Positions 41,747 to 45,953 of a DNA stretch of 49,119 nucleotides are shown in pieces. Both the position numbers and the translations under genes were made by a program. Source of the DNA: Oscillospiraceae bacterium. GTDB lineage: Bacteria; Bacillota; Clostridia; Oscillospirales; Oscillospiraceae. The notes beneath the pieces are model-generated. The model ran no database searches, was not told the DNA's origin, and saw only the letters and a list, made by a program, of their open reading frames with translations. The stretch lies in NCBI GenBank assembly GCA_017461445.1, contig JAFTXW010000018.1:1-49119 (forward strand), read 5' to 3'. Every line of letters starts with the position of its first letter. Position 1 is the first letter of the stretch.

Positions 41747-41775
41747 TTGACAAATTCCGGCAGCGGTGTTATGAT
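41747..41775 (+). promoter_or_regulatory. Promoter of the ABC exporter operon
   Basis: TTGACA (41747-41752), 17 nt, TATGAT (41770-41775) with a TGT extension. Transcription should begin near 41782, about 30 nt before the leader peptide. Confidence 0.88.
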
Positions 41776-41811
41776 TCCCCTATAAAATAAAAAAGAAAGG
41801 AGGAAGTGAAT

Positions 41812-41892
41812 ATGTTGATGAACATTTATGTTTTCGGTTTCGGAAATGGAAATATCAGCGGAAGACTTGCTCCTTGGGGGATCGTGCGGTAG
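41812..41892 (+). CDS. Leader peptide, 26 residues
   Basis: A short reading frame begins MLMNIYVFGFGNGN and ends at TAG 41890-41892. It has a perfect ribosome site, AAAGGAGG at 41796-41803, at 8-nt spacing, better than that of the exporter genes. It is rich in Gly, Asn and Phe. It lies between a strong promoter and an intrinsic terminator, and 160 nt before an ABC exporter, so it fits a regulatory leader peptide that stalls the ribosome. It has no hydrophobic segment or secretion signal. Function is inferred from the layout. Confidence 0.75.
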   Translation: MLMNIYVFGFGNGNISGRLAPWGIVR

Positions 41893-41950
41893 GGGATCTA
41901 TCGTACTATACGTTTATGCGGCGCAAGCATTCTGCTTGGGCCGTTTTTTT
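41866..41950 (+). promoter_or_regulatory. Transcription attenuator before the ABC exporter genes
   Basis: The intrinsic terminator has a stem at 41919-41929 with 41933-41943 (one G-G mismatch) and seven T residues (41944-41950), well before the first exporter gene. CTTGC at 41866-41870, inside the leader-peptide codons for residues 19-20, could pair with GCAAG at 41923-41927 and open the terminator. A second hairpin (41957-41962 with 41981-41986) follows. Confidence 0.75.
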
Positions 41951-42052
41951 GCGCCCAACCAGCGGTTTGACGCATTCAACGGCTGGTTTGTTGTAAAGGG
42001 AAACGAATGCTGCTATCATAAAGGCAGCCGCGATAGACTTTGAGGTAACAAA

Positions 42053-43783
42053 ATGAAAAAAATGATTCCCTATCTACTCCCTTACTGGAAGGGACTTCTA
42101 CTGGCAACGCTTTGCATTGCGGTCTCCACCGTCTGTGATCTGCTGCTGCCGACTATTATGAGCGATATTCTGAACAATGGCATCTATCAGAGGGACCTGG
42201 ATTACATCGTAAAATGCTGCGCGCTGATGCTGGCGGTGTGTCTGCTGGGCCTGGGCACTCTTTTGCTCGGCACCTGGTTTTCTACCCGGGTGGTATCCGG
42301 CTACTGCGCCGACCTGCGGGGCGTGATCTTCCGCAAGGTCAACGCCATGAGCTTTGAGGAATTCGGTAAGCTGGGCACAGCGGCTCTTGTGACCCGGGCT
42401 ACCCACGATGTGGAAACGGTGTCCTGGATCGCCTCAGAACTGTCAGGAACGGTCATTACCATTCCCGTTCTGTTTTTCGGTGGTGTGATCCTTGCTATGC
42501 AGAAGGATATGGCACTGAGCCTTATCATGCTGGCCTTTATCCCAGTGATCCTGGCAGTGGTACTGGTCATCGGTCGGAACATTGTTCCCCTCTGGGAAAA
42601 GTCCGACGAGTATATTGACAAACAGAATGACATCATGCGCGAGCGGCTCCGGGGTATCCGGGTGATCCGGGCCTTCAACTCGGAGGATAAGGAACATGAA
42701 CGGATCGCGGAAGCGACCCGGATCATGGCACTTTACATCATCAAAGGCAATGTTGCCATGGGACTGATTACGCCCCTTGCAACCTTCCTGCTGAATCTTG
42801 CCGCCGTTCTGATCGTCTATTTTGGCGGCTGGCGGATGGAGTTAGGCACTGGCCTTACCGGCGGTGACGTGTTCGCCATCGTCCAGTATGTGTCCCTGGT
42901 TGCCAGCGGTGTTATTATGGGCGCGTTCTCCATTCTCATGTTCCCCCATGCCCAGGTAGCGGCGGGGCGCATCGGCCAGGTGCTGGAAGCCAAAGGCATG
43001 GCCGATCCGGTAGCCCGGCAGGAGCTGCGGCTGAAGGGAGACATTGTGTTTGACAACGCCAGCTTCCGCTACGACGGTGCGGCGGAAAGCGCACTGAAAA
43101 ATATTTCCCTCCACATCCCCGCAGGCCAGAAGACTGCTATCATCGGCGGCACCGGGTCGGGAAAATCCACTCTGGTCAGTATGCTTTTGGGCTTCCGTAT
43201 GCCCACGGAAGGGGAAGTACAGCTGGACGGTATTCCTACGACGAAACTCAGCCGCCATACCATGCGGGAGAACATGAGCTGCGCCCTGCAGAATGCCACC
43301 ATCTATTCCGGCACCATCCGGGAGAATGTCCGCATGGGCAGGCTCAATGCCACGGACGGGGAAATTCGGGATGCCCTGACCACCGCCCAGGCACGGGAAT
43401 TTGTAGACAGCTTCCAGGACGGCCTGGATCACGAGATCAAGCAATCAGGCAAGAATCTCTCCGGCGGACAGAAGCAGCGGCTCAGCATTGCCCGTGCCCT
43501 CTTAAAGGATGCGCCCATCTACATTTTTGACGACAGCTTTTCCGCCCTGGACTTTCTGACGGAAGCGAATCTTCGCTCCGCACTTGCGAAGAAGATTGCG
43601 GGAAAAACCCAGATCATCATTACTCAGCGGGTCACCTCCGCCATGCACTGCGACCGCATCCATGTTCTGGACCGGGGCGCACTGGTAGATAGCGGCACCC
43701 ATGAGGAGCTGCTGGGCCGCTGCGGTGTTTATCAGGAAATTTACGCATCCCAGACAGGAGGTGGGCACCATGAAGAAACCTAA
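42053..43783 (+). CDS. ABC exporter subunit with degenerate ATP site
   Basis: This 576-residue protein has six transmembrane segments (about 1-300) and a C-terminal ATPase domain with GGTGSGKST near 365 and LSGGQKQR. The Walker B ends IFDDSFSALD, with Asp in place of the catalytic Glu, and the switch histidine is replaced in ITQRVTS. This is the pattern of the degenerate site in heterodimeric exporters such as BmrCD and TM287/288. It should pair with the product of the next gene, overlapping by 14 nt, and export drugs or peptides. It is under the attenuator upstream. Confidence 0.93.
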   Translation: MKKMIPYLLPYWKGLLLATLCIAVSTVCDLLLPTIMSDILNNGIYQRDLDYIVKCCALMLAVCLLGLGTLLLGTWFSTRVVSGYCADLRGVIFRKVNAMSFEEFGKLGTAALVTRATHDVETVSWIASELSGTVITIPVLFFGGVILAMQKDMALSLIMLAFIPVILAVVLVIGRNIVPLWEKSDEYIDKQNDIMRERLRGIRVIRAFNSEDKEHERIAEATRIMALYIIKGNVAMGLITPLATFLLNLAAVLIVYFGGWRMELGTGLTGGDVFAIVQYVSLVASGVIMGAFSILMFPHAQVAAGRIGQVLEAKGMADPVARQELRLKGDIVFDNASFRYDGAAESALKNISLHIPAGQKTAIIGGTGSGKSTLVSMLLGFRMPTEGEVQLDGIPTTKLSRHTMRENMSCALQNATIYSGTIRENVRMGRLNATDGEIRDALTTAQAREFVDSFQDGLDHEIKQSGKNLSGGQKQRLSIARALLKDAPIYIFDDSFSALDFLTEANLRSALAKKIAGKTQIIITQRVTSAMHCDRIHVLDRGALVDSGTHEELLGRCGVYQEIYASQTGGGHHEET

Positions 43784-45530
43784 TCTCAAAGAAAATCCGC
43801 TGATCCGCCTTGCCCTGATGGCGAAGCCCATTGCTCCCTGGCTGCTTGTGGGTGCGGCCCTGGACATTCTGGCGGTCATCAGCTCCGTCATTGCGCCCGA
43901 GCTGTTGGGCGAGCTGGTGCAGGTGTTGTATGATTTCTGGGAAGGTGGCTCCATTGGCTCCGTCCGGGACACGATGGTTACGGGCCTTCTGCTGCTGACG
44001 CTGGCCTACGCTGCCAACGGCTTATTCAGTTACCTCAATATGTGGCTGATGAACAACGTGGTCACCCGGTTCTTCACCAGCGGTATCCGAATTCAGATTT
44101 CCGAGAAGATCATCCGCCTGCCTGTCCGCTATGTGGATCAAACGCCTGTGGGCGATATTCTGAACCGCATGACCGGGGACGTATCCACCCTGGGCGGTTA
44201 TGTCCATGACATTTTTAATATCCTGGTAAAGGGTGTGTTCCAGATCGTGATGATTGCCGTGGCCATGTTCCTGGAGGACTGGCGGCTGGCATGCTTTGTG
44301 GTACTTCTAACGCCCCTTTCCATCTGGCTGTCCTCGAAGATTGCTTCCGTCAGCGAAAAATACTATGATGATATGTTCACCAAATCGGGCAAGCTGACAG
44401 AGCAGGTGGAGGAGGCCTTCACCAACTATGCCACCACCAAAGCATATAACCTTGAGGAATACACCATCGAAAAGCATGATTCTATCAACAGTCAGCTGGC
44501 GAAGGCAACCGTAACAGCCAATTTCACTGGCTCCACCGTCCAGCCTATCATCCGGCTCAGCAATTCGGTGGCCTATATTCTCATCAATCTGATCGGCGGC
44601 TATCTGGCAGTAAAGCAGGGTGTCAGCGTGGGTGTGGCGGTGACCATCGTGCTCTTTGCCCGGCAGTTTGCCTCCCCTCTGGAGCAGCTGGCCTATAGCT
44701 TCGCCCAGATGAACCGGGTAAAATCTGCCGCGAACCGGGTCTTTGCCATCCTGGATATGGAGGAGGAGCCGGTGTCCGAGGGAACGCTTACAGAGGACGT
44801 CCGGGGCCGGGTGGAATTTGAAAACGTGGATTTCAGCTATGATCCCAAGGAGCTGCTGATCGAGGATCTGAATCTAACTGTAAAGCCAGGGCAGAACGTT
44901 GCCATCGTGGGCCCTACAGGCGCGGGAAAAACCACCATCGTAAACCTGCTGATGCGCTTTTATGATATTGACAGCGGTACCATCCGCCTGGATGGCCGGG
45001 ATATTTCGGAGCTTTCCCGGGAGGAGGTTCGAAGCCGCTTCGGTATGGTTTTGCAGGATACCTGGCTGTTCAAGGGCACCATTGCCGAAAACGTAGCCTA
45101 CGGCAAGCCCGATGCCACCCGCGAGGAGATCGAGGAGGCCTGCCGTAGGGCCTACTGCGATCATTTTATCCGGACCATGCCCGAGGGCTACGACACAATT
45201 ATCAGCGAGGACACCACCAATCTTTCCGGCGGACAGAAGCAGCTGCTGACCATCGCCCGGGCTCTGCTGGCGGATAAGCCGCTACTGATTCTGGACGAGG
45301 CTACCTCCAACGTGGATACCCGGACAGAGATACTCATTCAGAAGGCTATGGATCAGTTGATGGAAGGGAAGACCAGCTTTGTCATTGCCCACCGGCTCAG
45401 CACCATCGTGGATTCCGACTTGATTCTGGTGCTGAACCACGGCAAAATCGTGGAGCAGGGCACCCATAGGGAGCTGCTGGCGAAGAAGGGGTTCTATCAT
45501 AAACTCTATACCAGCCAGTATGCGGTATAA
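43770..45530 (+). CDS. ABC exporter subunit with canonical ATP site
   Basis: This 586-residue protein has the same exporter fold: a membrane half (about 1-330) and an ATPase with GPTGAGKTT, LSGGQKQL, the intact Walker B LLILDEATSNVD and the switch FVIAHRLST. It completes the functional ATP site of the heterodimer. The start at 43770 has AGGAGG at 43756-43761; the gene overlaps the first subunit by 14 nt. The substrate is unknown, but multidrug export is typical. Confidence 0.93.
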   Translation: MKKPNLKENPLIRLALMAKPIAPWLLVGAALDILAVISSVIAPELLGELVQVLYDFWEGGSIGSVRDTMVTGLLLLTLAYAANGLFSYLNMWLMNNVVTRFFTSGIRIQISEKIIRLPVRYVDQTPVGDILNRMTGDVSTLGGYVHDIFNILVKGVFQIVMIAVAMFLEDWRLACFVVLLTPLSIWLSSKIASVSEKYYDDMFTKSGKLTEQVEEAFTNYATTKAYNLEEYTIEKHDSINSQLAKATVTANFTGSTVQPIIRLSNSVAYILINLIGGYLAVKQGVSVGVAVTIVLFARQFASPLEQLAYSFAQMNRVKSAANRVFAILDMEEEPVSEGTLTEDVRGRVEFENVDFSYDPKELLIEDLNLTVKPGQNVAIVGPTGAGKTTIVNLLMRFYDIDSGTIRLDGRDISELSREEVRSRFGMVLQDTWLFKGTIAENVAYGKPDATREEIEEACRRAYCDHFIRTMPEGYDTIISEDTTNLSGGQKQLLTIARALLADKPLLILDEATSNVDTRTEILIQKAMDQLMEGKTSFVIAHRLSTIVDSDLILVLNHGKIVEQGTHRELLAKKGFYHKLYTSQYAV

Positions 45531-45539
45531 GGAGAATAT

Positions 45540-45953
45540 ATGGAAATTAAAGAAAATGTACTGACTGCGGAGCAGTTCCTGCATCTGTTCACCGCCGTCG
45601 GCTGGGAACCGCCCTCTTATGAACAGGCAGAAAAGGCACTATATAACAGCTATGCCACCTTTTTAGTTTTTGACGGCGAAAAAATATGCGGCATGGCGAG
45701 ACTTTTGGGCGACGGTGCCATGTCCTTTTATGTAAAGGACTTTGCGGTTCTTCCGGAAATGCAGGGAAAAGGGATTGGAAGAATGCTGATGGAATATATA
45801 GAGGAGTTCATCCGAAGAAATTTAGAAGAGGGGTGGGCAGTCAGCCTGGAACTGATCAGCGCAAAAGGGAAGGAAGCCTTCTATGAAAAGCTTGGCTTTG
45901 AAGCCCGCCCATGCGTCTGGGATGGCCCTGGGATGTTCAAAATGCTCCGGTAA
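45540..45953 (+). CDS. GNAT N-acetyltransferase
   Basis: This 137-residue protein has the GNAT acetyl-CoA motif DFAVLPEMQGKGIGRMLMEY and a C-terminal GKEAFYEKLGFEARP. AAGGAG lies before the ATG, 9 nt after the exporter stop, so it is co-transcribed. Together with the exporter it might modify the exported or toxic compound; this is suggested only by gene order. Confidence 0.88.
   Translation: MEIKENVLTAEQFLHLFTAVGWEPPSYEQAEKALYNSYATFLVFDGEKICGMARLLGDGAMSFYVKDFAVLPEMQGKGIGRMLMEYIEEFIRRNLEEGWAVSLELISAKGKEAFYEKLGFEARPCVWDGPGMFKMLR

Follow-up and report, generated by a model that had tools for sequence, protein, structure and literature searches.

A candidate ribosome-mediated transcription attenuator preceding a heterodimeric ABC exporter and other genes in an Oscillospiraceae-like genus

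Introduction

In Bacillus subtilis, the bmrCD exporter is preceded by the bmrB leader, whose 53-codon frame contains the terminator within its coding sequence; lincomycin, erythromycin or chloramphenicol act as inducers, and bmrBCD is additionally under the control of AbrB (PMC4191407). As described in the accessible part of that report, bmrB resembles the element analysed here in combining a translated short open reading frame (putative in the present case), alternative stem-loops, an intrinsic terminator and an ABC exporter, and differs from it in that the frame in the present locus ends at 41892, before the terminator start at 41918. Because its terminator sits outside the leader ORF, the element is not filed as a bmrB leader. 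In Streptococcus pneumoniae, mef(E)/mel is preceded by the mef(E)L leader, for which it is proposed that a stalled ribosome opens an early stem-loop and that a distal repeat then pairs with the terminator as an anti-attenuator; the peptide, MTASMRLR, resembles those of the erm(K) and msr leaders (PMC4335068). Insofar as the available sections describe it, this system shares with the present one a short leader peptide and, as we propose here, a distal segment that pairs with the terminator after an early stall, whereas the MRLR-type peptides of mef(E), erm(K) and msr differ from the 45 variable peptides described below, none of which contains RLR. The third comparable case is the yxjB leader of B. 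subtilis, in which a drug-stalled leader ribosome blocks termination upstream of a resistance gene, and which additionally has a hairpin sequestering the Shine-Dalgarno sequence (SD) of the gene itself and a NusG-dependent pause (PMC6851288). From what the accessible text gives, the likeness lies in a stalled leader ribosome that prevents termination, as proposed here.

Two broader surveys are also relevant. Naville and Gautheret described 'ABC-leaders', attenuators preceding ABC transporter operons, among them one for multidrug export in two lactobacilli; attenuators are also said there to hop between genes (PMC2965389); the taxa are different and, in the part of the article consulted, an element of the present type is not described. 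The uORFC-6-1 motif before hflX in Bacillales combines leader ORFs with a conserved RNA structure and is thought to be a stalled-ribosome sensor (PMC8632094). As far as that source could be seen, it has a conserved Arg-Leu-Arg and mainly one downstream gene, and the present element has neither this motif nor a single cargo. The closest working analogues would thus appear to be bmrB, mef(E)L and yxjB. In the literature searched, a scope that took in few subscription papers, no description of this RNA family was found. The kind of mechanism is known; the features that mark a new variant are one RNA family with many cargoes and the use of the leader's own SD as an anti-antiterminator.

The element is probably a ribosome-mediated leader-peptide transcription attenuator, as judged from its sequence and that of its relatives. 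Computation finds the sequence features of this class, namely a terminator before the gene, a short ORF with an SD, and an exclusive antiterminator that uses leader codons.

The leader and the exporter genes

The window (the whole stretch of DNA that was analysed, 49,119 nucleotides) belongs to a 2.66 Mb genome assembled in 61 contigs, of which it is one; covariance models R1 and R2, introduced below, find a single copy of the leader element in that genome. The gene order is DNA polymerase I, TsaD, leader, ABC-A, ABC-B and GNAT, and all features given here lie on the forward strand. The closest named relatives of the exporter are Oscillospiraceae/Clostridia metagenome bins at 57-64% identity, three of which bear names taken from animal gut samples or similar sources; the host genus appears to be uncultured and Oscillospiraceae-like, and its bacteria are probably gut-dwelling.

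A sequence-only reading of this DNA had described a strong promoter, a 26-codon frame with a ribosome site and a complete terminator about 100 nt before the first exporter gene, all of which are present. The promoter (41747..41775; TTGACA-17 nt-TATGAT, with TG before the second hexamer) matches the consensus at 11 of 12 positions and would place the transcription start near 41782. The SD, AAGGAGG (41797-41803), is followed by the leader ORF (41812..41892; MLMNIYVFGFGNGNISGRLAPWGIVR), whose 26 codons run from ATG 41812 to TAG 41892. The intrinsic terminator (41918..41950), found by MFE folding, shuffles and RNAalifold, comprises a stem at 41918-41944 and a T-run at 41944-41950; its MFE is -18.5 kcal/mol (z -3.8), and only 1 of 200 shuffles is as stable. 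It ends 102 nt before the exporter start at 42053, compared with only 17-32 nt in 11 of the 14 leaders of this exporter. Between the two, at 41991-42019, lies a promoter-like site (9/12, with TG before the second hexamer) that could bypass the attenuator; about 1.7 such 9/12 sites are expected by chance per 2 kb scanned.

As a whole, the leader (41782-41955) folds with a z of -4.4, none of 200 dinucleotide shuffles being as stable. Its MFE structure consists of a helix between the SD and the late codons, a hairpin spanning the stop codon, and the terminator. The first of these, P1, can form between segment A (41797..41807, the SD AAGGAG plus AAGT; MFE and covariation) and segment B (41861..41875, GAAGACTTGCTCCTT, codons 17-22), and in the predicted fold it hides the leader's own SD. 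The second, P2 (41884..41906), is found in both the MFE fold and RNAalifold. According to duplex folding and covariation, B may have as its partner either A or segment C (41918..41932; fold and covariation), which comprises the 5' arm and loop of the terminator; the B:C pairs in the window are GAA 41861-41863 with TTC 41930-41932, CTTGC 41866-41870 with GCAAG 41923-41927, and CC 41872-41873 with GG 41920-41921.

Downstream, ABC exporter subunit A (42053..43783; PF00664, PF00005 and motifs) has a degenerate catalytic site, in which IFDDS replaces the catalytic Glu and ITQR replaces the switch His. Subunit B (43770..45530; motifs and structure matches), the start of which was re-read as ATG 43770 after GGAGG, has a canonical site (ILDEA, IAHR). 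One degenerate and one canonical site are the signature of a heterodimeric exporter, which bears out the exporter type given in the sequence-only reading; the pair has the single degenerate site of a TM287/288-type heterodimeric exporter. The best structure match of subunit A is 8wcw_A (4.4e-113), with 3qf4_A at 3.2e-104, and in the solved TM287/288 pair (3qf4) chain A matches subunit A and chain B matches subunit B, the top structure matches of the latter being P-glycoproteins. Only 9 nt past the ABC-B stop is a GNAT acetyltransferase (45540..45953; PF13508, E 2.8e-16), which is probably part of the exporter transcript in the window's genome, to judge from its position. Subunit B follows subunit A in all nine orthologous loci checked, and the GNAT was not found behind ABC-B in nine of nine (one of which has only ~200 bases there); its membership of a conserved operon was accordingly rejected.

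Conservation among orthologues of exporter subunit A

Orthologues were defined as matches to subunit A at E<=1e-130, of which the search of 136 same-genus genomes gave 17, and the upstream DNA was read for all of them. The leader is present in 14 of the 17, with SD, frame and terminator in the same arrangement, a frame of 20-29 codons and Arg as the final residue; the exporters of the 13 besides the window are 59-77% identical to that of the window. It is absent upstream of the other three (L014, L015 and L138; exporter identity 51-53%), and all four of the remoter relatives, taken from named contigs (L037-L040), lack it too. In L138 a short hairpin and T-run were seen by eye before the exporter, possibly a terminator without a leader frame.

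When all 14 leaders were folded, three structures recurred: the A:B helix, the terminator and a hairpin close to the stop codon. RNAalifold gave 22 pairs, five of them with two-sided changes; among these 14 leaders, two-sided changes occur in P2 (pairs 101-129 and 103-127 of alignment A2) and in the terminator (pairs 148-160 and 149-159 of A2). The encoded peptides share little besides LA(P/S) over segment B and the terminal Arg. The sequence-only reading had proposed comparing relatives for conservation of both peptide and pairings, and would have been refuted by the lack of the short frame or the terminator in them. That outcome did not occur: the short frame and terminator recur in these 14 of 17 orthologues and the pairings covary, and the peptide is poorly conserved.

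A wider family and its cargo genes

An exact pattern search of the 136 genus genomes gave 13 places in 13 genomes, four of which (in G011, G075, G006 and G152) were rejected as unlike the leader by eye. Covariance model R1, built from the 14 exporter-A leaders, found further matches in the genus before other genes, with E from 4e-15 downward. For model R2, 24 loci from the two groups were used; at E<=1e-4 it matched 49 places, spread over 44 of the 136 genomes, and a family-wide search with it (300 genomes) added two strong sister-genus matches, G574 and G636. The analysed set of 45 loci comprises these two and 43 of the 49 genus matches, including G093b despite an E of 6.1e-6; outside it are G152, G061 and G100 (dropped by hand), G127 (in which no start was found), G001 and G076:C19. 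G152 matches at E 1.2e-11 and by eye has CTG at the start position and no gene close behind.

The terminator hairpin is found in 45 of 45 loci, the search model itself having required a terminator. A promoter matching at least 10 of 12 positions (spacers 16-19) lies within 60 nt upstream in 44 of 45, compared with 1.3% of mononucleotide shuffles. An SD-like site followed by a frame of 19-29 codons is present in 45 of the 46 loci examined for it, G127 being the failure and G152, G061 and G100 having been dropped by hand beforehand. This regularity speaks against the possibility that a protein or small RNA relieves the terminator and that the short frame is incidental, an arrangement also at odds with the covariation of A:B with the SD region itself and with an Rfam scan of the window in which the leader had no match at gathering score (the only match being a tRNA elsewhere); we regard it as very improbable.

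Among the 45 cargoes there are 14 members of the window's exporter, 15 of a second exporter family, three S66 peptidases, four GNATs (one standing 326 nt away), eight other genes and one contig end (G636). The eight, one each, are a methyltransferase, GrpB, a metallophosphoesterase, a histidine phosphatase, NUDIX-HIT, a 130-residue nucleoside phosphorylase match, an ABC ATPase and a protein without a Pfam match. In the second exporter family, 14 members are 69-97% identical to the representative G069, which matches structures of YheI (which we take to be BmrC) at ~1e-86 and also 6raf, a bacterial heterodimer subunit; P-glycoproteins score better.

The two exporters, the commonest cargo kinds, thus account for 29 of the 45 cargoes. 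This is relevant to an alternative in which the attenuator RNA is the same but the signal is a general slowing of early translation (amino-acid shortage, low charged tRNA) and the genes serve stress maintenance. Such a role would suit the NUDIX/HIT, histidine phosphatase, GrpB and metallophosphoesterase cargoes, which are not obvious drug-resistance genes, as well as the lack of RLR or an evident shared arrest motif in the 45 peptides, but exporters are not the genes one would expect to relieve a shortage of amino acids. In addition, trp and his leaders carry runs of regulatory codons for one amino acid, and a run of this kind is absent from the present family, in which the longest run of the same residue is three, found in three of 45 peptides and with different residues. 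Taken together, a signal of this general kind seems unlikely.

Two mutually exclusive pairings

Segment B can base-pair with the SD region (A) as well as with the 5' arm and loop of the terminator (C). For cognate A:B duplexes the mean energy is -19.2 kcal/mol, compared with -15.1 (sd 0.44) for permuted partners, none of 5000 permutations being as low (40 non-redundant loci), and for cognate B:C duplexes it is -15.2 compared with -13.6 kcal/mol (sd 0.32), again with 0 of 5000 as low (39 non-redundant loci); both permutation statistics ignore shared ancestry, and in 12 of the 45 loci B lacks GCTCC and was placed using hand-chosen patterns. The B:C covariation is not a product of the search, because the search model held some A:B pairs and zero B:C pairs. 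In the 10 exporter-A representatives alone, A:B is clear (0.0003) and B:C is no better than permuted (0.18); the B:C covariation became clear only across the whole family. The interaction that the sequence-only reading put forward between late leader codons and the terminator stem can form as described and covaries family-wide; the ability of the same segment to pair with the leader SD had been missed. Its wider interpretation, ribosome-mediated attenuation, gains support from the conservation of the leader and the covariation of both pairings.

In simulations of the nascent RNA with A free, A:B (at least 6 pairs) forms in 33 of 45 loci and B:C in 11 of 45; placing a ribosome on the start codon raises the B:C count to 42 of 45. 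The threshold of at least 6 pairs is weak for B:C because a shuffled C arm attains it in 53% of trials; the mean number of B:C pairs is 11.8, compared with 5.6 for the shuffled arm. At equilibrium the terminator prevails in most loci. In the window itself the balance is close: with A hidden, the antiterminator fold has an energy of -38.3 and the terminator fold of -39.8 kcal/mol, a gap of 1.5. With nothing bound, the terminator-arm probability exceeds 0.9 in 44 of 45 loci, and with a start-codon ribosome it exceeds 0.9 in 36 of 45 and falls below 0.5 in five of 45 (median 0.95). Given this preference, the antiterminator would have to work kinetically, forming before RNA polymerase has completed the 3' arm; action in the course of transcription is usual for attenuators. 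The same equilibrium preference would fit a promoter-proximal terminator that merely sets a low basal level and regulates nothing, but the conserved order of promoter, leader and terminator and the covariation of two mutually exclusive helices make this scarcely credible.

RNA segment and leader peptide

Judged by sequence, what is conserved across the family is the RNA segment and not the peptide. From the start codon to the GCTCC-type core of B there are 12-22 codons in the 45 loci, and the segment is kept in one frame in 43 of them, 33 of which read LAP, FAP or LAS. These counts are the ground for considering a drug-specific arrest peptide, with the conserved (L/F)AP codons as the stall site. 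The residues over B are explained by the pairing of GCTCC with GGAG of the SD, however; those preceding B vary among loci, and in G131 and G022c the RNA segment is retained outside the usual frame. Moreover, a ribosome stalled at (L/F)AP would be expected to cover B and thereby to favour termination. There is little room for an arrest peptide of this kind: because conservation lies in the RNA and not in the residues, and because of this expected covering of B, LAP was rejected as an arrest motif. The string RLR occurs in none of the 45 peptides, and no common arrest motif is evident; with the variable residues and the scarcity of same-residue runs, this argues against both a single drug-specific arrest sequence and an amino-acid leader.

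The G022c locus (L228), which precedes an S66 peptidase, keeps TTTGCTCC and the terminator, with the frame shifted against the FAP...TR-stop frame; decay or an assembly error may have disrupted it.

Proposed mechanism and implications

In the attenuator model, B would pair with A when no ribosome is present and could not reach the terminator, and transcription would end at ~41950 (OFF). A ribosome that reaches the stop codon would cover B, or have passed it, in time for the terminator to form (OFF). Only a ribosome that has initiated and then stalls in roughly the first dozen codons would open A:B and leave B uncovered; the freed B would pair with the emerging terminator 5' arm as an antiterminator, with P2 within its loop, and RNA polymerase would continue into the exporter genes (ON). 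As the leader's own SD is the anti-antiterminator partner, initiation would be needed for induction, and because the early codons vary freely, we infer that the switch senses ribosomes halted early by translation inhibitors as a class and does not depend on an arrest peptide specific to one drug. The analysis shows directly the sequence elements and how they are conserved, as well as covariation in the two pairings; leader translation, stalling, read-through and the inducer enter as steps of the proposed model.

Recurrence before several protective-looking genes suggests a shared sensor of stalled ribosomes. On balance we lean, without great confidence, towards a nearly peptide-independent attenuator RNA that has spread through the genus and placed about ten mostly unrelated gene families under an 'express when ribosomes stall early' rule, a figure in which methyltransferase, NUDIX-HIT, GrpB, histidine phosphatase, metallophosphoesterase and nucleoside phosphorylase are each represented by one analysed locus. 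If this is true, the attenuator marks a hidden set of inducible protective genes and constitutes a portable sensor of ribosome inhibition in uncultured bacteria that can be searched for by sequence. Its cargo genes would then become candidates for an inducible defence against antibiotics, whether natural or medical, and would include families such as the S66 peptidases, GrpB and NUDIX-HIT that sequence alone would not flag as protective. The family would also offer a compact test of how an ORF with a non-conserved leader peptide can still act as a sensor.

Distribution and neighbouring elements

Searches across the order gave best E values outside the genus of 7.2e-7 (R1, 394 genomes) and 1.1e-6 (R2, 345 genomes; the sets overlap). 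Of the 30 listed R1 places, 18 were read, 15 of them outside the genus, and none of these shows the SD-leader-B arrangement by eye; the rest of the listed R1 places and weak matches at the family level (L219-L226, L234) fall outside this reading. Among the places that were read, those beyond this bacterial family yielded nothing convincing, no match to the family was found in plasmid or phage records, and viral contigs gave zero matches for one exact pattern. Such absence is weak evidence because a limited number of first-look candidates is scored in each genome (7 to 22 for the model searches).

Several other elements were observed, the first three of them by eye. A different recurring element occurs at four places in other genera of the order (L172, L175, L176 and L187), within the R1 match and upstream of it; it ends with a GTGGCGCGGCTTCGGC-type terminator, which a GTTTTTGCC/GGCAAAAAC-like hairpin precedes at three of these places. 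Two weak R1 matches (L205 and L207) resemble T-box leaders, with GGTACCGCGGGTAT before the terminator. In the window, an inverted repeat, AACCAGC...GCTGGTT, lies 3' of the terminator at 41957-41988. Finally, L230 (in G123) has, close to its attenuator-linked nucleoside phosphorylase match, a methyltransferase that is 58% identical to the attenuator-linked methyltransferase of G148.
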